Part shown: in pieces, positions 8,950-20,962 of the stretch
How positions within the stretch are numbered: position 1 is the first letter of the stretch
Layout: each line of letters begins with the position of its first letter
DNA from: Pseudochrobactrum kiredjianiae
GTDB taxonomy: Bacteria; Pseudomonadota; Alphaproteobacteria; Rhizobiales; Rhizobiaceae
Reading direction: 5' to 3'
Assembly (NCBI RefSeq): GCF_030362795.1
Contig: NZ_JAUCBM010000004.1
Location: 248,001 to 312,000 of the forward strand
DNA: 64,000 nucleotides
The notes under the pieces: model-generated
Seen by the model: only the letters and a program-made list of their open reading frames with translations
Told to the model about the DNA's origin: nothing
Databases searched by the model: none
Translations under genes and position numbers: made by a program

Positions 8950-9305
8950 TCGAGGGCTCCCTTCTTCCATTCATAAATGAAGCCGATGGTCAGAATGCCG
9001 AGGAAGACCATCATGGACCAAAATCCGAACATACCGATTTCACCGAAGGACACAGCCCACGGGAACAAGAATGCGACTTCAAGGTCGAAGATGATGAAAA
9101 GAATGGATACCAGATAGAAACGCACGTCAAACTTCATGCGTGCATCATCGAATGCGTTAAAACCGCACTCGTATGCAGAGAGTTTCTCTGGATCCGGCTG
9201 TCTGTACGCGACCAGGAATGGCGCTACCAGCAACGCAATTCCGATCACCATTGCCACGCCAATAAAAATGACGATCGGCAGATAGGAACTTAAAAGCTCG
9301 TTCAT
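8940..9305 (-). CDS. nuoA: NADH-quinone oxidoreductase subunit A
   Basis: Small membrane subunit of complex I with three predicted helices (about residues 8-30, 63-83 and 90-112). The signature [25 protein letters not shown]-type stretch that follows helix 1 is intact. At 121 residues it is full length. It is the first gene of the operon, so the promoter should lie in the gene-free DNA just to its right. Confidence 0.96.
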
Positions 9306-10141
9306 TACCCTATTTCCGGCTTCAAGATGTAAAGTTGTGCACTACATAAGCCATTTGACGGCTACAGCCATGTGACACATTGCACCTTACTATCAATCTC
9401 GCCCAAACAGCTTCAAATGGCGTGCCGTGCGAATACAGTGCTTTGTATGGGGACGGTTATCGCAGTCGACCGGATTGCGCAAGCCTTTATAGCGCATGTC
9501 TCCTATGCGCTCACACGGATATGATTAATAAAAGCCAGCCTGTTAACAACTCAAGGCAACCCGACGCGTCCTACAAAACAATCCGCCCGAGAACTGAATC
9601 TCCGGCACAGTGACTTGTCAATTATATCTGAAAAGAATCAAAACGACATCAGGGCATCGTAACGCACATAAATCGCGTGCCATATGGCGCCCGACCAGCT
9701 CACATTTAATTGAACCCGCAATGCACGCTCTCATGTTTTTGAGCCACCCAATATTGGTAGGCACTCAATAAACGCAACAAAACAGAACAGCCCGCCAACT
9801 CTGACAATCTGAGCGTTAAAAAAGAAAGTCAGCACTCTTTATATACAAGGAGAGATAAGAGCTTGCCCCGAATACGATCTGCGCAGCTCAAACCAGCACA
9901 GACCACCCTCACCCCGACAAGACAAGCGTGGGGATTCGCGCATCGATATAATGTGCATACATCCAAGCTTTGAAGCACCAATGATTCACGCAGTGCAAAT
10001 GCATATGTTTAAATATGAATCAGATGACCGTGCACAACATGCATTTCATGGCACCGGCACTCCACATCAATAAACAGTACAGCGAATGCGCACTTAAACT
10101 TGCGGAACAAATAAGAGATAAAGAGGATTTATTGGCGGGGT
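9306..10141. other. Gene-free stretch right of nuoA
   Basis: No reading frame here looks like a protein. The nuo promoter should be in its left part, reading leftwards. A TTGACA is visible on the minus strand at 9621-9616, but I see no good -10 box at the right distance, so I do not call a promoter. Confidence 0.5.
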
Positions 10142-10186
10142 GCGCCACTTTCTCCGATTTCGATTTTAAAGAAGAGAAAGTGGCGC
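10142..10186 (-). other. Hairpin joining the 3' end of tRNA-Asp copy 1 to its trailer
   Basis: A perfect 13-base inverted repeat: GCGCCACTTTCTC (10142-10154) and GAGAAAGTGGCGC (10174-10186). The right arm covers the last six bases of the tRNA, including CCA. In the precursor RNA the trailer could therefore pair with the acceptor 3' strand. No T-run follows, so it is not a standard terminator. Confidence 0.7.
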
Positions 10187-10257
10187 GAGTGACGGGGCTC
10201 GAACCCGCGACCTCCGGCGTGACAGGCCGGCACTCTAACCAACTGAGCTACACCCGC
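10181..10257 (-). tRNA. tRNA-Asp (anticodon GTC), copy 1
   Basis: The 77-base cloverleaf reads, on the minus strand, GCGGGTG TA GCTCAG at the 5' end. The anticodon stem is CCGGC/GCCGG around CTGTCAC, giving anticodon GTC. The T arm is GCGGGTTCGAGCCCCGT, and the acceptor closes with CACTCGC, then G and an encoded CCA. Its RNA would read leftwards. A second copy lies 199 bases to the right with nearly identical flanks. Confidence 0.96.
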
Positions 10258-10415
10258 GCAGTACTTCATGTGCTGAAGTGATTTTGTATGTACCCTGATT
10301 CATTTTTAAAATCAAAGGGTTTTCTTATAAAATTCACAAATAAATGAAAAATTTTTCATTTAAAAACAAAAGGTTAAATATGGACATGAAAGGTAAATTA
10401 TAAAGCAGGCGGGGT

Positions 10416-10462
10416 GCGCCACTTTCTCTGATTTCAAATTTTTAAAGAAGAGAAAGTGGCGC
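10416..10462 (-). other. Hairpin joining the 3' end of tRNA-Asp copy 2 to its trailer
   Basis: The same 13-base arms as at copy 1 occur at 10416-10428 and 10450-10462. The loop between them differs in sequence and is two bases longer. The arm again includes the tRNA CCA end. Retention of the stem while the loop drifts argues that pairing matters, although recent duplication is an alternative. Confidence 0.7.
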
Positions 10463-10533
10463 GAGTGACGGGGCTCGAACCCGCGACCTCCGGCGTGACA
10501 GGCCGGCACTCTAACCAACTGAGCTACACCCGC
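10457..10533 (-). tRNA. tRNA-Asp (anticodon GTC), copy 2
   Basis: Identical in sequence to the first copy over all 77 bases, including the encoded CCA. It has the same GTC anticodon in a CTGTCAC loop. Both copies are on the minus strand and may share one promoter in the gap to their right. Confidence 0.96.
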
Positions 10534-10942
10534 GCAGTATTTCAGATTTAATCTGAAGACCTTAAGCTATTCGCTTGAGGCACCGTAACGTTTCCGTCCG
10601 GTATGGGCGCTGTCTAATGGGTTCCCTGTGAACTGTCAAGCGAGCTTTTAAAAGTTTTTCATCAAAAATGAGATAAAATACGCGAAGCTGCATAAGGCTG
10701 TCTTTATATATATAGGACGCTCTCAGAGAATAAATTTTATACATAAATCTGTATGAATTTCTGCCTCCCCTCCTCCCTATAAGCATCTGAAATCTAAGAA
10801 TCATCCGAAACGGCGCACTGCACACATGTCAGGAATGTGAACAAACAAAAAATAATGCACATTTCTGTTTTATTTTGATTTTTGCTCTTGCGCTGAATCA
10901 AAGAATTCCGTAAACGAGCCTCACAGCCGCTGCAAAGCGAGC
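10534..10942. other. Divergent intergenic DNA between tRNA-Asp and tRNA-Val genes
   Basis: This A/T-rich stretch separates the leftward tRNA-Asp genes from the rightward tRNA-Val genes, so promoters for both directions are expected here. I see no protein-coding frame and no convincing -35/-10 pair. Confidence 0.45.
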
Positions 10943-11018
<76 letters not shown>

Positions 11019-11120
11019 TTTATTTCTCTGAGAAGTCAGATTGATAAATGAGAATATAAATATGTAGTGCTCATATTTATGTTCGATGATAAAAAGCAGC
11101 ACAAACCGCTTTTAGCGAGC

Positions 11121-11196
<76 letters not shown>

Positions 11197-11251
11197 TTCC
11201 TTTCCCCTTTGAATATCACATACTACATATAGACTGATGATACTAAATCAT

Positions 11252-11338
11252 TAGAGCATATCGTGTTTATCGTACCCACAGCGCTCGCTCTATCTATCTG
11301 TTTTGCGCATGTCGTTATCGCATGAAGTGATTCATGCC
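11252..11338. repeat. Dispersed intergenic repeat, family B, copy 1
   Basis: Starts TTAGAGCATATCGTG, then carries CGTACCCACAGCGCTCGCTC, and ends with a hairpin GCATGAA/TTCATGC (11320-11337). Its reverse complement matches the element at 63868-63961 in order: hairpin, ACATGCG, AGAGCGAGCGC, GTGGGTACGAT and the closing GCTCTA. Confidence 0.7.
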
Positions 11339-11627
11339 ACACGATGTCGGGTATGGCTCATTATCAATTAGCAATAAAATTATTTTGTTTGGCTGGCTCA
11401 ACCGAATTTCAAAAAAGAATCGTGAGCCCGTTCCGGCGCTTTTGTAAAGCAAAGAATCTGCCTGCAAACCGCAAAGATTCAACCCCAAAAGCGCTTGTTT
11501 CTTATATATTGCAGATAAGAATCATATGCACCGGCGGCACCCTGCCCTCATGCCAGATCTATGCCTCATGGCCTCTCTCCCGGATATTTATACAGCCCTG
11601 TGTATAGCGGGTAAAAATAAATCAGAG

Positions 11628-11676
11628 ACACCATAGGTATTGACGAAAAATTCATAACATATACCATATATAGTGT
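11628..11676 (+). promoter_or_regulatory. Candidate NrdR-box pair overlapping a promoter
   Basis: The right box ATACCATATATAGTGT (11661-11676) matches 14 of 16 positions of the NrdR consensus ACACWATATATWGTGT. The left box ACACCATAGGTATTGA (11628-11643) is weaker, about 11 of 16. They start 33 bases apart, close to three helical turns, as is typical of NrdR pairs. A TTGACG (11640-11645) can serve as the -35 box. The expected target nrdHIEF starts 1.1 kb downstream with no gene between. NrdR itself is encoded at 59707-60189. Confidence 0.5.
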
Positions 11677-12530
11677 CTTAAGCAGACCCCACGATTCTGC
11701 GACCGCAGATTCGAAACGGCGCTTAAAACGACTTTATCAGGTGCGTTGAATACGGAAATACCGAGTGTAATCTGGATCAGTCACGCCTGTTCTTTGCTGA
11801 AAACGGAGAATCTCTCCTGCCCAGTGAAGAAACGGAACTTGGTGCCAGTCATTAAGGTCCAGAGCATTGCATAATACACAGGCGCCAACCGGTTTTCTGT
11901 GTGTATGCAGCAAATGTAAGAAGCCAGAGCGGGCGCAACGAAAAAATGAAATGCGATACGCTCCGGTCATGTTGAAGACGGAAGAAATGTGTTGAGCCGG
12001 CCTGCATTATACACAAGCCAGCAAATCACATTTTCACAAGGCAACAGGAATCAGGTTGTGCGCAAGGTCAGAGCTGCTTTTCAGGTATCGGGTTACAAAC
12101 AGGCTTCAGAGTCTGTGTTTCAACATACCGCGTCAGCAGATAACTCACCGCAGGCATCTATGTCAGCCACACCAGCCGCCAGAGCGCAGCTGCGCCCAAT
12201 GGCTTTATATGACCATCCGTGAAACCGGCTCCGGAGCTTCTCGCAAGTTTTCCGGATCTCCTTTTCTGCCTCTACCGTCATTCAGTCCGTATCATCAGTT
12301 TTAAAGTACAGCATGCGTTTTGCGGATTAACCGCAGTTTGTGCAGCACATGAAAGGCGCGAATAAAGCGCGCCATAAATTTCGTCGCCCTTCTGATCGCA
12401 AGGTGACGGAACCATAGTGCTCGGATTTATCGCTGGTAACAGTCTCTGCAGAGGCAGCCAGCGGGGAATACAGGGAAGCGTCAAACGCACCGTTTTTTGA
12501 GGGCAAAAAGCTCCGGAGAACAGAGGATAC
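11677..12530 (+). other. Long non-coding stretch, possible nrd leader
   Basis: About 850 bases with no convincing gene on either strand; the short frames here have no recognisable content or ribosome sites. An imperfect stem GCATAATACACAG/CTGTGTGTATGC lies at 11869-11908. I looked for a cobalamin riboswitch (B12 box) and did not find one. If the NrdR-box promoter is real, this is transcribed as the 5' leader of nrdH. Confidence 0.45.
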
Positions 12531-12643
12531 CGCACCGTCAGGTGCAAAAAAGAAGCGCACCGTCAGGTGCAAAAACGAAGCGTACCGTCAGGTGCAAATG
12601 AATGCCGCACCGAAAGGTGCAAAAAACAAGCACCATCCGGTGC
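12531..12643 (+). repeat. Tandem array of five small hairpins upstream of nrdH
   Basis: Five units of about 25 bases, each with a 14-base palindrome GCACC-NNNN-GGTGC followed by an A-rich linker. Palindromes lie at 12532-12545, 12557-12570, 12582-12595, 12607-12620 and 12630-12643, with periods of 25, 25, 25 and 23. Loops are GTCA three times, then GAAA, then ATCC. The third stem has GTACC opposite GGTGC, which keeps pairing in RNA through a U-G pair. The array ends 137 bases before the nrdH start. It is not a CRISPR array and no frame runs through it. Function unknown. Confidence 0.8.
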
Positions 12644-12780
12644 AGCCATTTGAAGCCCTGCAAAGGGAAACGTAGCCCCCGCTACACTGCCTGCGGCAAG
12701 TTCCGAGCGGAACAAGCAACAGACAGACACCATAGAGAAAGCTCTGAAAAATATCAGGGCGTCAAGAAACGAGGAATCCG

Positions 12781-13002
12781 ATGTCCATTACCGTTTACAG
12801 CAAGCCAGCCTGTGTTCAGTGCACCGCCACCTACCGCGCTCTGGAACGTCAGGGAATCGATTTCAATATCATTGATATTTCTGCCGATACAGAAGGCTTC
12901 GATACAGTTAAGCGTCTTGGTTACATGCAGGTTCCGGTTGTTGTTGCCGGTGACACCCATTGGGCCGGTTTCCGTCCGGATATGATCAGCGCTCTGGCTT
13001 AA
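12781..13002 (+). CDS. nrdH: Glutaredoxin-like protein NrdH
   Basis: Small thiol protein that reduces the class Ib ribonucleotide reductase NrdE. The 73 residues contain the redox motif CVQC (residues 11-14) and the NrdH-type ending GYMQVPVVVAGDTHWAGFRPD; most family members have WSGFRPD. GAGGAA lies six bases before the ATG. It opens the nrdHIEF cluster, but a 251-base gap separates it from nrdI. Confidence 0.96.
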   Translation: MSITVYSKPACVQCTATYRALERQGIDFNIIDISADTEGFDTVKRLGYMQVPVVVAGDTHWAGFRPDMISALA

Positions 13003-13054
13003 TCAACAGCGCTGGCAGTCCGCCTGTTGTGCGGATGTTTTCCCGCGAACGAAC

Positions 13055-13085
13055 CTGCCCGTCTACACTCAATGGTGACGGGCAG
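13055..13085 (+). other. Hairpin in the nrdH-nrdI gap
   Basis: Arms CTGCCCGTC (13055-13063) and GACGGGCAG (13077-13085), nine perfect pairs with a 13-base loop. No T-run follows, so it may adjust nrdH versus nrdIEF mRNA levels by processing rather than termination. Confidence 0.5.
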
Positions 13086-13253
13086 TCGCGACCGGCAAAC
13101 AAATCACCTTCAGGCAAATGCCAGAAACCTTACGCCCTCTTTCTTATATGTCCTGCAATCACACGGGCTGAAATGCCTGACCGGCAGCATTATATAGAGA
13201 GGGTCTTTGTTTGACTTCAGTACGTCACTGAGGCTTTGACATAGGAAGTGGCT

Positions 13254-13664
13254 ATGAGCATGCTCGTCTATTTTTCAAGCGGCACGCAAAATACGCATCG
13301 CTTTGTTACCAAAACCGGACTGCCTGCTCTGCGTATAGCGTGCAGCATGAAGGAAGAAATTCTGCTGGTTACTCAGCCATTTGTTCTAGTTGTGGCAACC
13401 TATGCCGGAGGAGACGGACGCGGTGCGGTTCCTAAACCCGTCATACGTTTCCTCAATGACAGTTCTAACCGTTCATTGATCCGTGGTGTGATTGCCGGTG
13501 GAAACCGTAACTTTGGTTCTACCTATTGCCTCGCAGGTACAGTCATTTCTGAGAAGTGTCAGGTGCCGTTTCTATACCGCTATGAATTAGCCGGTACTGA
13601 TGACGACGTGATCAATGTGCGTAATGGTCTGCACAGATTCTGGCAGCAGGCCCAGGCGGCGTAG
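13254..13664 (+). CDS. nrdI: Ribonucleotide reductase flavodoxin-like activator NrdI
   Basis: Flavodoxin-like protein that helps assemble the dimanganese-tyrosyl radical of NrdF. The FMN phosphate loop is seen at the start ([15 protein letters not shown]) and the family stretch [22 protein letters not shown] follows. The ATG at 13254 has AGGAAG five bases upstream and gives 136 residues; a GTG at 13248 is a weaker alternative. It normally overlaps or abuts nrdH; here it does not. Confidence 0.95.
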
Positions 13665-13738
13665 CCGCTGTCTAGTAAAAAACACCGGCCTAGCCATAGG
13701 TCTACGAACTAACGGCATAACCGCCGGGCTTTTAAACA

Positions 13739-13777
13739 CCAGAGCATTTTTAATAATGCGAATTAAAAATGCTCTGG
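13739..13777. repeat. Perfect 16-bp head hairpin of family A
   Basis: CCAGAGCATTTTTAAT (13739-13754) pairs perfectly with ATTAAAAATGCTCTGG (13762-13777) around a seven-base loop. The GAGCATTT...AAATGCTC arms match the heads of the family A repeats elsewhere in the window. It lies in the 240-base gap between nrdI and nrdE. Confidence 0.65.
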
Positions 13778-13904
13778 CGGTTTAACGAATACAAATTGAA
13801 TAACTGTCCGCTTTTACGAGAAAAGCAGGGGCAGTATCCTGAACAGGTGTGTAAACGAAGCCGGGACTTTGTTTGCCAGACCCGAAAGATGAATTGGAAA
13901 AACT

Positions 13905-16094
13905 GTGGCGACTCTTGAGCTTGAACGATCAGACAAAACCAATACCAACAGTTCAAACAGCGGGAGTTCTAACAAGGATGCTCCGGCGATGGATTATCAC
14001 GCGCTGAATGCCATGCTGAACCTGTTTGGCCCGAATGGTGAGATCCAGTTTGATATGGATCGTAAAGCCGTTCGCCAGTATTTTCTTCAGCATGTGAACC
14101 AGAACACGGTTTTCTTCCACAATCTGGAAGAGAAACTCGATTATCTGGTCACCCAGAATTATTATGAAAAAGAAGTTCTGGATCAGTACTCATTCGAGTT
14201 TGTGCAGAACCTCTTCAATCTCGCTTATAAAAAGAAATTCCGCTTCCCGACCTTCCTCGGCGCGTTCAAATATTACACCAGCTATACGCTGAAAACATTT
14301 GACGGTCTACGCTATCTGGAACGCTATGAAGATCGCGTCTGCATGGTCGCGCTGGCACTGGCCGACGGCGATGAAGCTCTGGCGATCTCGATCATGGAAG
14401 AAGTGCTGTCCGGCCGTTTCCAGCCTGCGACACCAACCTTCCTCAACGCCGGTAAAAAACAACGCGGCGAGCTGGTTTCCTGCTTCCTGCTGCGTATGGA
14501 AGACAATATGGAATCGATCGGCCGCTCGATCAATTCCGCACTGCAGCTTTCCAAGCGCGGTGGTGGTGTTGCTTTTGCACTGACTAATATTCGTGAGCAT
14601 GGCGCGCCGATCAAAATGATCGAGAATCAGTCTTCCGGTATTATTCCGATCATGAAGCTGCTCGAAGACGCTTTCTCCTATGCCAATCAGTTGGGTGCGC
14701 GTCAGGGTGCCGGTGCGGTTTATCTTAATGCCCACCATCCGGACATTATGCGCTTCCTCGATACCAAGCGCGAAAATGCCGATGAAAAAATCCGCATTAA
14801 AACTCTGTCGCTCGGCGTAGTGATTCCGGATATCACTTTTGAACTGGCGAAAAATGACGAGGATATGTACCTGTTCTCGCCATATGATGTGGAACGCGTT
14901 TACGGCGTGCCTTTCACTGAAATTTCGGTTTCAGACAAATATCGCGAAATGGTTGATGATGGCCGTATCCGCAAGCAGAAGATCAAAGCGCGCGCTTTCT
15001 TCCAGACTTTGGCGGAAATTCAGTTTGAATCCGGCTATCCGTACATCATGTTCGAAGATACCGTGAATGCAGCCAATCCGATTGCCGGTCGCATCAATAT
15101 GAGCAATCTCTGCTCGGAAATCCTTCAGGTCAGCGAAGCCAGCACCTATAAAGACGATCTGAACTACGAGCATATCGGCAAAGATATTTCCTGCAACCTC
15201 GGCTCGCTCAATATTGCGATGACCATGGACTCACCGGATTTCGGTAAAACCGTTGAAACATCGATCCGTGCACTGACTGCTGTGTCGGATATGAGCAAGA
15301 TCAATTCCGTGCCTTCCATTGCCCGTGGCAATGACGAATCACACGCAATTGGCCTTGGTCAAATGAATCTGCATGGTTATCTGGCACGTGAGCGCATTTA
15401 TTACGGTTCAGAAGAAGGCGTGGATTTCACCAATATCTACTTCTACACCGTGGTCTATCACGCGATTAAAGCCTCGAACCGCATTGCTATGGATCGCAAG
15501 TCGAGCTTCGTTGGTTTTGAAGATTCAAAATATGCTGACGGTACTTTCTTCGACAAATATACGATCAAGCTCTGGGAGCCGGAAACAGCGCGCGTTCGTG
15601 AATTGTTTGAAACATCCGGCGTTGCGATTCCAACGCAGGCAGACTGGGAAGAGTTGCGCAAATCAGTGATGGCGCATGGTATGTATAATCGTAATCTTCA
15701 GGCGGTTCCGCCGACAGGTTCGATTTCTTACATCAACAACTCGACCTCTTCGATCCACCCGATTGCATCCAAGATTGAGATTCGCAAAGAAGGTAAGATC
15801 GGCCGCGTTTATTACCCTGCCCCGTTTATGAGCAATGATAATCTGGAATATTATCAGGATGCTTATGAAATCGGTGCAGAGAAAATCATCGACACTTATG
15901 CAGCGGCAACGCAGCATGTGGATCAGGGCCTGTCCCTCACCTTGTTCTTCCGTGATACCGCCACAACACGCGATATCAACAAGGCGCAGATCTATGCATG
16001 GCGCAAGGGAATCAAAACAATCTACTATATCCGCCTGCGCCAGATGGCTCTGGAAGGGACACAGGTAGAAGGCTGCGTTTCCTGTTCCCTGTAA
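13905..16094 (+). CDS. nrdE: Class Ib ribonucleoside-diphosphate reductase alpha subunit
   Basis: Catalytic subunit converting ribonucleoside diphosphates to deoxy forms. Active-site stretches LVSCFLL and NLGSLNIA are present, and the C-terminal redox pair is GCVSCSL. The 729-residue protein starts with GTG at 13905 and has a serine/asparagine-rich N-terminal tail of about 25 residues before the conserved [14 protein letters not shown] start at that internal ATG is possible, so the tail is uncertain. It is followed by nrdF after 73 bases. Confidence 0.96.
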
Positions 16095-16110
16095 TCATCG
16101 TCACGTTTGA

Positions 16111-17142
<1,032 letters not shown>

Positions 17143-17200
17143 TATATTCTTCAAATAAAGAAGAAAATTCATCTGAAAATACTTCTTTTGCGAACATAAA

Positions 17201-17250
17201 AAATAAACAAGCCCCAGAGCCGACAAACCGGCTCTGGGGCTTGTTTATTT
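17201..17250. terminator. Terminator after nrdF
   Basis: A perfect 22-bp stem (17201-17222 with 17229-17250) and a six-base loop. The GC-rich core GCCCCAGAGCCG is flanked by AAATAAACAA and TTGTTTATTT. It can end transcription in either direction. Confidence 0.9.
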
Positions 17251-17468
17251 TAGGGAGTTTTTTAACGCGTTGAAATCAATATAATATCCATTGTTTTCAA
17301 TCCATGTAATTGAGCAAAGCCTTCTAAACAGCAGCATTTTATTAAGCAAGAACAACACTTAATTTTCATTTACTATGTAATTTAAGTCTTGAAAAACAAT
17401 CTGTGCGCTATAAATCAAAACAGGTCAGCAAGACCATAACAAATAAAGAACTATCTGGAGTTAAGGCA

Positions 17469-17642
17469 ATGAAAGCAATTTTCAAACGTTTCGCTAAAAG
17501 TGAATCCGGCGCAACTGCAATCGAATACGGTCTGATTGCAGCGCTTATCGCTGTTGTGATTATCGGCGCTGTAACAGCACTCGGAGATAATATCTCGTCC
17601 ACATTCCAGACCATTGCAGATAAAATTGGTACTGGTGAGTAA
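17469..17642 (+). CDS. Flp/Fap-type pilin, first of two
   Basis: A 57-residue type IVb pilin subunit. A short basic leader MKAIFKRFAKSESG precedes the processing site, then the hydrophobic stretch ATAIEYGLIAALIAVVIIGA with the conserved glutamate at position 5. The ATG at 17469 lies after GGAGTTAAGG; the frame extends further upstream but without a leader-like sequence. No Tad/Cpa assembly genes are nearby, so export would need genes elsewhere. Confidence 0.92.
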   Translation: MKAIFKRFAKSESGATAIEYGLIAALIAVVIIGAVTALGDNISSTFQTIADKIGTGE

Positions 17643-17684
17643 TCTAAAAATTTCAAAGGCTGAAAATCTAGCCAATGAAATTAC

Positions 17685-17708
17685 ACCGTCCGGCCAAGGC
17701 CGGACGGT
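17685..17708 (+). terminator. Terminator between the two pilin genes
   Basis: Arms ACCGTCCGGCC (17685-17695) and GGCCGGACGGT (17698-17708) with a two-base turn, followed by TTTTCTT. This is a textbook rho-independent terminator and suggests the first pilin is made at a higher level than the second. Confidence 0.88.
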
Positions 17709-17750
17709 TTTCTTAAATATTGTTGCCCACATTTTTATTTGGTGAGGCTC

Positions 17751-17915
17751 ATGAATAAATCTCGGTTCTGGCAATCCCAGACTGGTGCAACGGCTATTGA
17801 ATATAGTCTGATTGCTGCATTTATCGCTTTAATGATAGTGGGCTCGCTTCTCGCTCTGGAGCCAATGCTGACTGAACCGTTAGACACTGTCAGCAATACG
17901 TTAAACAAACAATAA
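17751..17915 (+). CDS. Flp/Fap-type pilin, second of two (54 residues)
   Basis: Short frame beginning MNKSRFWQSQTG, then ATAIEYSLIAAFIALMIVGS, matching the pilin processing site and helix of its neighbour including the glutamate at +5. GGTGAGG lies a few bases before the ATG. The leader is less basic and the C-terminus differs (ending TVSNTLNKQ), so it may be a minor pilin. It sits downstream of a terminator and is easily missed because of its size. Confidence 0.85.
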   Translation: MNKSRFWQSQTGATAIEYSLIAAFIALMIVGSLLALEPMLTEPLDTVSNTLNKQ

Positions 17916-18020
17916 TTCTTTCATTTTCATAGCCATGCCGCGCTTTGTCACGCTGCACATCTCCCTCATCTGCTTCTATAGTCGCATCATCAATCTGAAT
18001 AGCAATGCGATGAAAGCCTG

Positions 18021-19277
18021 ATGAATCACATACAAAGCGCCCCTGTAAAACCCGACTATCTCCATTTTGATCCTGCGACCCGCCGCGTGCGTATTGATCC
18101 GCACCAGCCGGAATTTGTGCAGAATCCTTATGCCGCTTATGCATGGCTGCATCACAATGCGCGGGTGTTTTTCTGGGAAGATTACGGTTTCTGGTGTTTT
18201 GCCGGTTATGACGATATCAACAAGCTGTTCCGCGACCGCCGTTTTGGCCGTGAAGAACCGGGCGGTTATCGTGCTAATGCAATCAACCGCGAACACCTCA
18301 AAGATTTTGATGGCGTAGAGCGTCACTCCATGCTGGAGATTGAGCCGCCGGTGCATACCCGTCTGCGCACTCTCGTCAACCGTGCTTTCGTCTCCCGTCA
18401 GGTTGAACGCCTGCGCCCGCGTATTGAAAAGCTCGCTAATGAGCTGATTGACGGTTTTGAACACCAAGGTCATGTCGACCTGATGCCAGCCTTCGCCACT
18501 CCTATTCCGGTGGTAGTGATTGCGGAAATGCTCGGTGTACCCACCGACAATGCCCCGCAACTGCTCGACTGGTCGCATCGCATGGTCAACATGTATATGC
18601 ACAATGCCACGCGTGAAGTGGAAGACAGTGCTAATCAGGCGGCCAAAGAGTTTTCCGATTATTTGCGTGACTACGCTGCACAGCGCCGCAAAAATCCGGG
18701 TGATGACCTGCTGAGCCTGTTACTGGCCGCTGAGGAAAATGGCGCCAAGCTCTCGGAAGATGAGCTGATTACCACCTGTATCTTGCTGCTCAATGCCGGA
18801 CATGAAGCAACGGTCAATCAGACCGGTAATGCGGTTAAGAGCATTCTACAAAGCGGTCTGGATCATCGCGATCTGTTTGCAACGCCGGAATCAACCGCTG
18901 CCACGGTTGAGGAAAGCCTGCGCTTTGATGCGCCGCTGCATATGTTCACCCGTTATGCCTATAATGAGACTGAAATTGCCGAAGGTGTAATACTCAAAGC
19001 CGGTGAACAGCTCGGTCTTTTGCTTGGTTCCGGCAACCGCGATTATCAGGCTTTCGAGCAGCCGGACCGCTTCTGGCCGGAACGTCCGGATCAGAAGAAT
19101 GTTTCCTTCGGTGCGGGTATTCATTTCTGTATCGGCGCACCGCTGGCACGTCTGGAAATGCAGGTGTCTCTGGCAACATTGTTCAAGCGTCTGCCGAATA
19201 TCCGCTTTGCCGAGCCGCCACTTTATGACGATACCTATCATTTCCACGGTATGCAAAGCCTGAAACTGGAATGGTAA
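18021..19277 (+). CDS. Cytochrome P450
   Basis: Soluble bacterial P450 of 418 residues. The heme loop FGAGIHFCIGAPLARLE places the ligand cysteine at residue 370. The I-helix AGHEAT is at 259-264 and the K-helix ESLR at 298-301. Substrate cannot be told from sequence. No ferredoxin or ferredoxin reductase gene is adjacent, so electrons must come from partners elsewhere. A hairpin terminator follows. Confidence 0.95.
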   Translation: MNHIQSAPVKPDYLHFDPATRRVRIDPHQPEFVQNPYAAYAWLHHNARVFFWEDYGFWCFAGYDDINKLFRDRRFGREEPGGYRANAINREHLKDFDGVERHSMLEIEPPVHTRLRTLVNRAFVSRQVERLRPRIEKLANELIDGFEHQGHVDLMPAFATPIPVVVIAEMLGVPTDNAPQLLDWSHRMVNMYMHNATREVEDSANQAAKEFSDYLRDYAAQRRKNPGDDLLSLLLAAEENGAKLSEDELITTCILLLNAGHEATVNQTGNAVKSILQSGLDHRDLFATPESTAATVEESLRFDAPLHMFTRYAYNETEIAEGVILKAGEQLGLLLGSGNRDYQAFEQPDRFWPERPDQKNVSFGAGIHFCIGAPLARLEMQVSLATLFKRLPNIRFAEPPLYDDTYHFHGMQSLKLEW

Positions 19278-19284
19278 AAACAAA

Positions 19285-19312
19285 AACGCCGCGTCTATCA
19301 AGACGCGGCGTT
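19285..19312. terminator. Bidirectional terminator between P450 and cupin genes
   Basis: AACGCCGCGTCT (19285-19296) pairs with AGACGCGGCGTT (19301-19312) around ATCA, with A and T runs outside. It serves the converging P450 and cupin transcripts. Confidence 0.9.
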
Positions 19313-19334
19313 TTCTATTCCAGACAATATAACT

Positions 19335-19676
19335 TTAAAGCTTTATCACATAGGTTTTACGAGTCGTTTCAATCACTTCCCACGTGCCTTTAAAGCCCGG
19401 TCTGATGATGAAACTATCGCCTGCCCGCAAAGTGACCGGCTCTTTGCCTTCTTCTGTGACCACAGACACACCGCTGATCAACTGGAAGAACTCCCACTCA
19501 TCATAAGCGACATGCCATTTACCAACAGTAGACTCCCAGATACCGGCATAAAGCCCGTCTGAGGTCTCTTCCACATTCCATGTTTTGAACTGCGGATCGC
19601 CGGAAATGATGCGCCCTTCAGCGGGCGCACCAAGTTCCGGTTCAGACTCTGTGTTTACAGGCAGCAACAACGACAT
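19335..19676 (-). CDS. Cupin domain protein
   Basis: A 113-residue single-domain cupin of the type often labelled ethanolamine/ureidoglycine cupin (Cupin_3/DUF861). The segment GKWHVAYDEWEFFQLISGVSV holds the first cupin motif and LRAGDSFIIRPGFKGTWEV the second. The biochemical role is unknown. Its ATG shares one base with the metY stop (TGATG), so the two are translated together, and a link to sulfur amino-acid metabolism is inferred only from that. Confidence 0.85.
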   Translation of the reverse strand: MSLLLPVNTESEPELGAPAEGRIISGDPQFKTWNVEETSDGLYAGIWESTVGKWHVAYDEWEFFQLISGVSVVTEEGKEPVTLRAGDSFIIRPGFKGTWEVIETTRKTYVIKL

Positions 19677-20962
19677 CAGGCGATCTTCGCCAAAGCCTGT
19701 TCAAGATCAGCGATAATATCGTCAGCATCTTCAATACCGATCGACAGACGCACCACTTCAGGCCCTGCACCGGCAGCAACTTTCTGCTCATCAGTCAACT
19801 GACGATGGGTTGTCGAAGCCGGATGGATAACCAGCGAGCGAGTATCGCCAATATTGGCCAGCAGCGAGAACAGTTCCAGCGAGTTAGCGAAAGTCTTACC
19901 GGCTTCATACCCACCCTTCAGACCGAAAGTGAAAACCGCGCCACCGCCCTTTGGCGAATATTTCTGCTGCAGAGTGTGATATTTGTCGGTTGGCAGACCG
20001 GCATAACGCACCCATGAAACTTTCTCGTGCTTTTCCAGCCACTGAGCTACTTTCAGTGCATTGTCGCAATGGCGCTGCATACGTAGTGGCAGAGTTTCAA
20101 TACCGGCCAGTATCTGGAACGAGTTGAACGGAGAAATCGCCGGACCAAAATCGCGCAAACCAAGTGTGCGTGCTGCAATGGCAAAAGCAATATTGCCGAA
20201 AGTTTTGTGCAGTTCCGCACCGGCATATTCAGGACGTGGCTCGCTCAGCATCGGGTAATTGCCGGATTTCGACCAGTCGAAAGTACCGCCATCAACCAGA
20301 ATACCGCCCATGGAATTGCCATGACCGCCAATAAATTTGGTCAGCGAGTGCACAACGATATCTGCACCATGTTCAATCGGGCGGATCAGATATGGCGATG
20401 CCATTGTATTATCAACGATCAGCGGCAGACCATGCTTATGTGCGATTTCTGCAATAGCAGCGATATCAACAACGATACCACCCGGATTAGCCAGACTTTC
20501 AATGAAAATCGCACGGGTCTTGTCGTCGATCTGTTTCTCAAAGCTGGAAACATCATCTACGTCACCCCAGCGCACTTCCCAGCCGAAAGACTTGAAGGCA
20601 TTTCCAAACTGATTAATCGAACCGCCATAAAGCTTGTTCGCAGCAACAAAGTTGTCACCGGTGCGCAGCAGATTATGGAAAACCAACAGCTGTGCAGCAT
20701 GGCCGGATGCGGTGGCAACCGCAGCTGTACCACCTTCAAGCGCTGCAACGCGTTCCTCGAGAACGGCTGTCGTCGGGTTGGTCAGACGGGTATAGATATT
20801 ACCGAATGCCTGCAGGCCGAACAGAGCGGCGGCATGGTCAACATCGTCAAAAACATAAGATGCTGTCTGATAAATCGGCGTGGTGCGGGCACCGGTTGTC
20901 GGATCCGGCTTTGCGCCTGCATGAATGGCAAGGGTATCAAAACCGGGGCTGCGCTTAGACAT
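19676..20962 (-). CDS. metY: O-acetylhomoserine sulfhydrylase/aminocarboxypropyltransferase
   Basis: PLP enzyme making homocysteine from O-acetylhomoserine and sulfide (or cysteine-related thiols). The 428 residues show the Cys/Met-metabolism PLP fold; the lysine that binds PLP is K209 in VHSLTKFIGGHGNSMGG. The C-terminal STTHRQLT and SIGIED stretches are typical. A GGGAG ribosome site lies before the ATG and may be partly hidden in a hairpin. The cupin gene is coupled downstream. Confidence 0.94.
   Translation of the reverse strand: MSKRSPGFDTLAIHAGAKPDPTTGARTTPIYQTASYVFDDVDHAAALFGLQAFGNIYTRLTNPTTAVLEERVAALEGGTAAVATASGHAAQLLVFHNLLRTGDNFVAANKLYGGSINQFGNAFKSFGWEVRWGDVDDVSSFEKQIDDKTRAIFIESLANPGGIVVDIAAIAEIAHKHGLPLIVDNTMASPYLIRPIEHGADIVVHSLTKFIGGHGNSMGGILVDGGTFDWSKSGNYPMLSEPRPEYAGAELHKTFGNIAFAIAARTLGLRDFGPAISPFNSFQILAGIETLPLRMQRHCDNALKVAQWLEKHEKVSWVRYAGLPTDKYHTLQQKYSPKGGGAVFTFGLKGGYEAGKTFANSLELFSLLANIGDTRSLVIHPASTTHRQLTDEQKVAAGAGPEVVRLSIGIEDADDIIADLEQALAKIA

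Follow-up and report, generated by a model that had tools for sequence, protein, structure and literature searches.

A conserved array of mini-hairpins in the predicted nrdHIEF mRNA leader of Pseudochrobactrum

Upstream of nrdH in Pseudochrobactrum kiredjianiae, five units of the type GCACC-N4-GGTGC follow one another on the + strand, and the way in which their stems have changed among relatives makes it very probable, as judged from sequence comparison, that they form short hairpins in RNA, within the nrdHIEF mRNA leader. The explanation put forward here, taken as a whole, is that these hairpins lie in a ~1.1-kb leader driven by an NrdR-type promoter, where they armor an attenuator that relies on a leader peptide and Rho; we rate it at slightly short of an even chance, and its mechanistic core, an armored attenuator, is more tentative than that. 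The window (the whole stretch of DNA analyzed, 64,000 nucleotides) is part of contig C4 in a 4.46-Mb genome. On its + strand, nrdH (12781–13002), nrdI (13248–13664, with the start codon taken from the list of open reading frames), nrdE (13905–16094) and nrdF (16168–17142) matched TIGR02194, TIGR00333, TIGR04170 and TIGR04171, respectively, each above cut-off. The supply of ribonucleotide reductase is essential. After nrdF, at 17200–17251, several unrelated miRNA models matched on both strands, so that a strong inverted repeat is probable in this segment; it may be the terminator of the operon.

The array occupies positions 12532–12643, with start-to-start distances of 25, 25, 25 and 23. Hairpins 1 (12532–12545), 2 (12557–12570) and 3 (12582–12595) have the loop GUCA, hairpin 4 (12607–12620) has GAAA and hairpin 5 (12630–12643) has AUCC; in hairpin 3, a single C to T change (GTACC arm) leaves one U-G pair. 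The number of units, their spacing, their loops and this one change are all as an earlier, sequence-only reading of the region had stated them. A half unit, GCACCGTT (12487–12494), which lacks a 3′ arm, stands upstream of the array and does not enter the unit count. With at most one mismatch, the pattern matched seven times in the window, compared with a mean of 1.86 in shuffled sequence (the largest of 100 shuffles gave 4), and five of the seven matches are packed within 112 bases; chance is an unlikely source of the array. Genome-wide, the exact pattern was found in 16 places (four in the array, the other 12 scattered), against three for the reversed control pattern. A degenerate three-hairpin pattern, which missed four of the six array-bearing genomes (either its linker limit is too narrow or their stems differ) and was used for the source genome only, matched there nowhere but in the array (three overlapping matches).

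An array of three to five units stands before nrdH in six of the seven genomes of the Pseudochrobactrum group, the one without the region (G005) being 61% complete. The counts are five in G000, G001 and G003, four in G004 and G006, and three in G002, and the start-to-start spacing within arrays varies from 22 to 26 across the genus. The loop of unit 5 is AUCC also in G001 and G003, GCAA in G002 and G006, and GUCA in G004. Two genomes, G001 and G003, have one of their five units set apart, upstream of a conserved hairpin that corresponds to 12492–12521; in both, a unit is flanked by near-identical direct repeats (CGCACCGTT, with a single base change in G003). Thus, when sought in relatives, as had been proposed from the single sequence, the array proved present and paired in all six genus genomes that hold the region; the same array was found in L066 and L074, records of Pseudochrobactrum asaccharolyticum and P. 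saccharolyticum. A model of the 3′ part of the leader (R1) matched the own genus only, that is, 6 of 394 family genomes from 109 genera, under strict filters that lose weak matches. A two-unit pattern was found in 55 stretches of genome contigs and 35 of viral contigs; among these 90 loci, only L066, L074 and L097, all of the Pseudochrobactrum group, matched NrdH, NrdI, NrdE or NrdF (E up to 1e-4). For several of the arrays elsewhere, the period is a multiple of three, as would be expected if they were coding repeats. Four GCACC-N4-GGTGC hairpins with a period of 29 occur between two genes in an Oligoflexia MAG (L070:1285–1385); judging from their translations, we take the flanking genes to be sucD-like and ndk-like, which would place this array before another gene of nucleotide metabolism. 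Three such hairpins with a period of 25 and A-rich linkers lie between convergent frames in a Lachnospiraceae MAG (L080:7600–7680) and are apparently a repeated terminator.

A promoter block at 11626–11677 (+ strand) consists of an NrdR box 2, a degenerate box 1 and a −35-like hexamer, TTGACG (11640–11645). The boxes were compared by eye with the expression C.[AT].A[AT].[AT].G, which is given, together with a distance of 14–17 bp between two boxes, in PMC12051234: the core of box 2, CCATATATAG (11664–11673, + strand), fits it, and that of box 1, ATAGGTATTG (11633–11642, + strand), departs from it at two of the six fixed positions. Provided that the degenerate box 1 counts as a box, the cores are 21 bases apart, which falls within the range that PMC12051234 equates with 14–17 bp. 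Only one base of the block differs, in one of the six genus genomes, and box 2 starts 948–1125 nt upstream of nrdH across these six. Among 11 nrdH loci of other genera, nine show an NrdR box with TTGAC arranged in the same way, L019 and L020 being those without. Between 11700 and 13300, neither a promoter-like site (in a simple sigma-70 scan, which covers one promoter type) nor, on the + strand, a terminator-like site was detected. In the source genome, the block lies ~0.85 kb upstream of the array, so that the latter is expected in the transcript, within a leader of ~1.1 kb, and would be transcribed from the NrdR-type promoter. A start of nrdH transcription downstream of 12643 had been named beforehand as the observation that would speak against an RNA array; at the sequence level, the conserved promoter block sits before the array instead.

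Evidence for RNA comes from the stems. In 26 units from six species, all 130 pairs are kept on the + strand (126 Watson-Crick, four G-U) and none is broken, whereas on the opposite strand 4 of the 130 would become A-C mismatches. Units were at first listed by being paired; in the alignment, with the half unit left aside, none of the units within the arrays is unpaired. Four of the 16 distinct units have changed a pair on both sides. This corresponds to two-sided change in 4 of 80 cells, a value reached in none of 500 shuffles, and the cells are 100% paired, compared with 95.8% in the shuffles. The covariation score, 0.277 against 0.184 in shuffles, was likewise reached in none of 500, and pairing fell to 21–22% when the 3′ partner was shifted by one base. 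Two of the five measures were not unusual, namely, the number of pairs with two-sided change (two, reached in 39 of 500 shuffles) and that of further pair types (five, reached in 255 of 500). Related units are not independent, and the shuffle counts for the array stems are therefore not probabilities. Covariation and the G-U direction of the one-sided changes together favor RNA in the sense of nrdH over a DNA operator, and the preference for RNA expressed in the sequence-only reading is upheld, on the + strand, by stems that keep pairing through compensatory, strand-specific change. To that reading, the present analysis adds the distance of the promoter, the leader ORF and the probable loss of a riboswitch. 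For the 401-nt region, folding gave z = −6.2; the opposite strand is almost as stable (z = −5.4). In thermodynamic folds, the probability was near 0 for two of the five units in the source genome and for two of the four in G006, and low for others; some units are predicted to be unformed because alternative pairings compete.

Between promoter and array lies a conserved leader ORF (12058–12222, + strand) of 54 codons, which begins with GTG in the source genome and ends LRPMALYDHP-stop. Across the six genus genomes, it comprises 45–54 codons; start, stop and frame are kept in all six, the ORF carries an in-frame 27-nt indel between relatives, and the LRPMALYDH before the last residue is invariant. 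In 14 of the 15 pairwise comparisons, change is greatest at third codon positions, and the other is a tie; against the most distant genome, G004, the third-position excess is slight or lacking for G006 and G002. Among the 394 family genomes, the ORF was matched in six, all of the own genus, and the peptide matched no Pfam or PHROGs family. A C-rich, G-poor stretch at 12213–12303 (+ strand) resembles, by base composition, a Rho utilization site. The leader-wide maximum of C minus G begins, in five of the six species, 10–11 nt upstream of where the ORF stop codon ends; in the source genome, the window with the maximum starts 102 nt before that end, inside the ORF, and a further C-rich window lies at 12226–12303. 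From the C-rich stretch, it is ~230 nt to the beginning of the array, and the untranslated bases between leader ORF and nrdH number 507–562. ORF and C-rich stretch together would have the anatomy of a leader-peptide attenuator that acts via Rho.

The proposed explanation joins these elements. The nrdHIEF mRNA would start at the NrdR-type promoter, and its ~1.1-kb 5′ leader would include the array. This leader would work as an attenuator, with a leader peptide and, at the stop codon of the latter, a C-rich stretch for the loading of Rho. Joined by A-rich linkers, the stable hairpins may together help to close the long untranslated portion to Rho and nucleases; as to its function, we infer that the array acts as armor or spacer, not as a sequence-specific operator, and that the transcript thereby survives to nrdH. 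Unit number (three to five), loops and linkers differ between genomes while folding is retained, as a generic structural role predicts.

Armor is not the only role that hairpins in RNA could have. The main rival, unlikely but serious, is a multivalent RNA site, in which a protein or ligand recognizes the 5-bp stem, the GNNA loop and the 3′ flanking A, and several units tune translation or decay of nrdHIEF. The stems stay near GCACC/GGUGC, although pairing alone would permit more drift, a constancy that may reflect either recognition of the sequence or recent duplication; the loop is GNNA in 20 of 26 units (nine of them true GNRA), and an A directly follows the stem in 25 of 26. However, the middle loop bases vary, the last unit has AUCC in three species, copies range from three to five, and Rfam searches gave no family that scores meaningfully across the array. 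To our knowledge, no known type of RNA-binding site fits the units.

Improbable, by comparison, is tandem duplication without function, with recombination between units keeping the hairpins alike. Units do resemble each other within one species, copy number differs and direct repeats flank a unit in G001 and G003, but the stem changes are paired within one unit without any broken pair, an outcome for which random transitions give P = 0.0015 (distinct changed units treated as independent), and the array is found in six of six genomes holding the region. DNA operators for a dimeric regulator are very improbable: perfect dyads upstream of an operon would suit them, and palindromes also resemble hairpins, yet all four one-sided stem changes are of the G-U type on the + strand while the other changes are paired, a spacing of 22 to 26 keeps no constant helical phase, and the promoter block is as remote as described above. 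Least credible of all are weak terminators on the opposite strand directed against antisense transcription, that is, hairpins followed by T-rich tracts, for even though all five terminator-like sites in 11700–13300 lie on the minus strand (shuffle mean 1.8), three of them overlapping array units and one just upstream of the array, that strand is the one that bears the A-C mismatches, the stems have ~5 bp and some of the T tracts start several bases off.

The predicted leader contains further conserved structures, all on the + strand. The hairpin just upstream of the array (12492–12521) appeared in the consensus fold (columns 122–151). Downstream of the array, a strongly conserved core (12656–12685; alignments A1 and A5 and consensus fold) comprises the hairpins CCCU/AGGG (12656–12667) and GUAGC-CCCC-GCUAC (12672–12685), and the hairpin GUUCC-GAGC-GGAAC follows at 12700–12713 (columns 334–347); three relatives have one of its pairs changed on both sides, and one relative has lost a pair. 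By pair probability, 12421–12428 may be a 5′ arm that pairs with the ribosome-binding site and start codon of nrdH (12774–12781, a partner also in the consensus fold). The mean pair probability was 0.87–0.94 in five of six species and 0 in G004; in the four of the six species taken into the comparison, G000, G001, G006 and G004, shuffled leaders reached the pairing observed for the start region in 4, 14, 7 and 51 of 60 cases, respectively. Occlusion of the nrdH start is thus not clearly above shuffles and fails in G004, and is kept only as a tentative idea, under which the array would be part of a closed domain.

What other genera have in the place of this leader puts it into context. An Rfam search at gathering score over 16 loci revealed a cobalamin riboswitch upstream of nrdH in seven, all of them from other genera (L010, L011, L012, L014, L015, L016 and L018). 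NrdJ scored above its model cut-off in exactly the seven genomes of these loci among 18 searched, so that the riboswitch is present at the nrdH locus in 7 of 7 genomes with NrdJ versus 0 of 10 without NrdJ above cut-off (six of the own genus, G087, G097, G011 and G012). G011 has a second, sub-threshold reductase-like match in a frame of 1,528 codons, and the incomplete G005 gave no reductase match. In the six genus genomes, NrdE was the only reductase large subunit matched in the search with the NrdJ model, which leaves out class III. The riboswitch model RF00174 did not match in the source locus, neither in 9000–20000 (E up to 1) nor in 12000–12800 or 11640–12080 (E up to 10), nor in the genus loci L002–L006, and its matches in genus genomes all sit elsewhere than in the nrdH leader. 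Because similar words catch the eye just past the promoter and within the core, a riboswitch remnant was considered; it was rejected, as even the permissive search of the short stretches gave no match. As cited in PMC5962746, reductase operons that carry a B12 riboswitch are known in Streptomyces.

The joint absence of riboswitch and NrdJ makes sense because switching off a B12-independent enzyme pays only beside a B12-dependent one. As the promoter is shared with other genera, the genus appears, on the comparison of loci, to have lost both rather than never to have had them, and the leader-peptide/Rho attenuator would have taken the place of the riboswitch. A bolder version, to which we give rather little credence, holds that the GNNA-capped hairpin chain of variable copy number and the leader peptide constitute a new cis-regulatory RNA that replaced the B12 riboswitch upon the loss of NrdJ and senses a different signal (e.g., through a multivalent RNA-binding protein). 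Within one family, the riboswitch is absent together with the enzyme that makes it useful, and a long new leader with ORF and array is present instead. The locus is thus a clean comparative case for the rebuilding of mRNA leaders, and it poses a testable question, namely, whether repeated small hairpins shield long untranslated leaders from Rho.

No family of Rfam 15 fits the array, overlapping matches being far below gathering scores and on the minus strand, and nothing on such an array was found in open-license papers. A weak resemblance to nrdJ RNA (RF03034) directly before nrdH (12689–12763; E = 0.095) was rejected; it scored 22.6 bits against a gathering score of 40.3 and is not shared by the genus, five other genus loci giving no match at E up to 10 (under filters made stricter by the larger amount of sequence). 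RF03034 was found in none of 297 genomes of the order, no control genome being positive either. Multi-hairpin leaders and sponges that bind proteins are known from CsrA/RsmA and TRAP, CsrA/RsmA sites being GGA in hairpin loops, and the mini-ykkC (guanidine-II) riboswitch consists of two hairpins with ACGR loops. All of these resemble the array in having short hairpins or motifs repeated in a leader or RNA. Among the 26 loops of the array, ACGR occurs in none and GGA in one, and no family of these kinds was matched in Rfam. Attenuators that combine a leader peptide with Rho, such as tnaC, have in common with the nrdH leader a short ORF, conserved C-terminal codons and an adjoining C-rich, G-poor stretch before the structural genes; unlike them, the leader of Pseudochrobactrum is much longer and contains a hairpin array, and its peptide falls into no Pfam or PHROGs family. 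A further counterpart is the cobalamin riboswitch RF00174 of other genera of the family, which, in the same operon and likewise downstream of the shared NrdR-type promoter, stands where Pseudochrobactrum has ORF, array and core. The array leader is filed as a structured mRNA leader, a known kind, in a new form.
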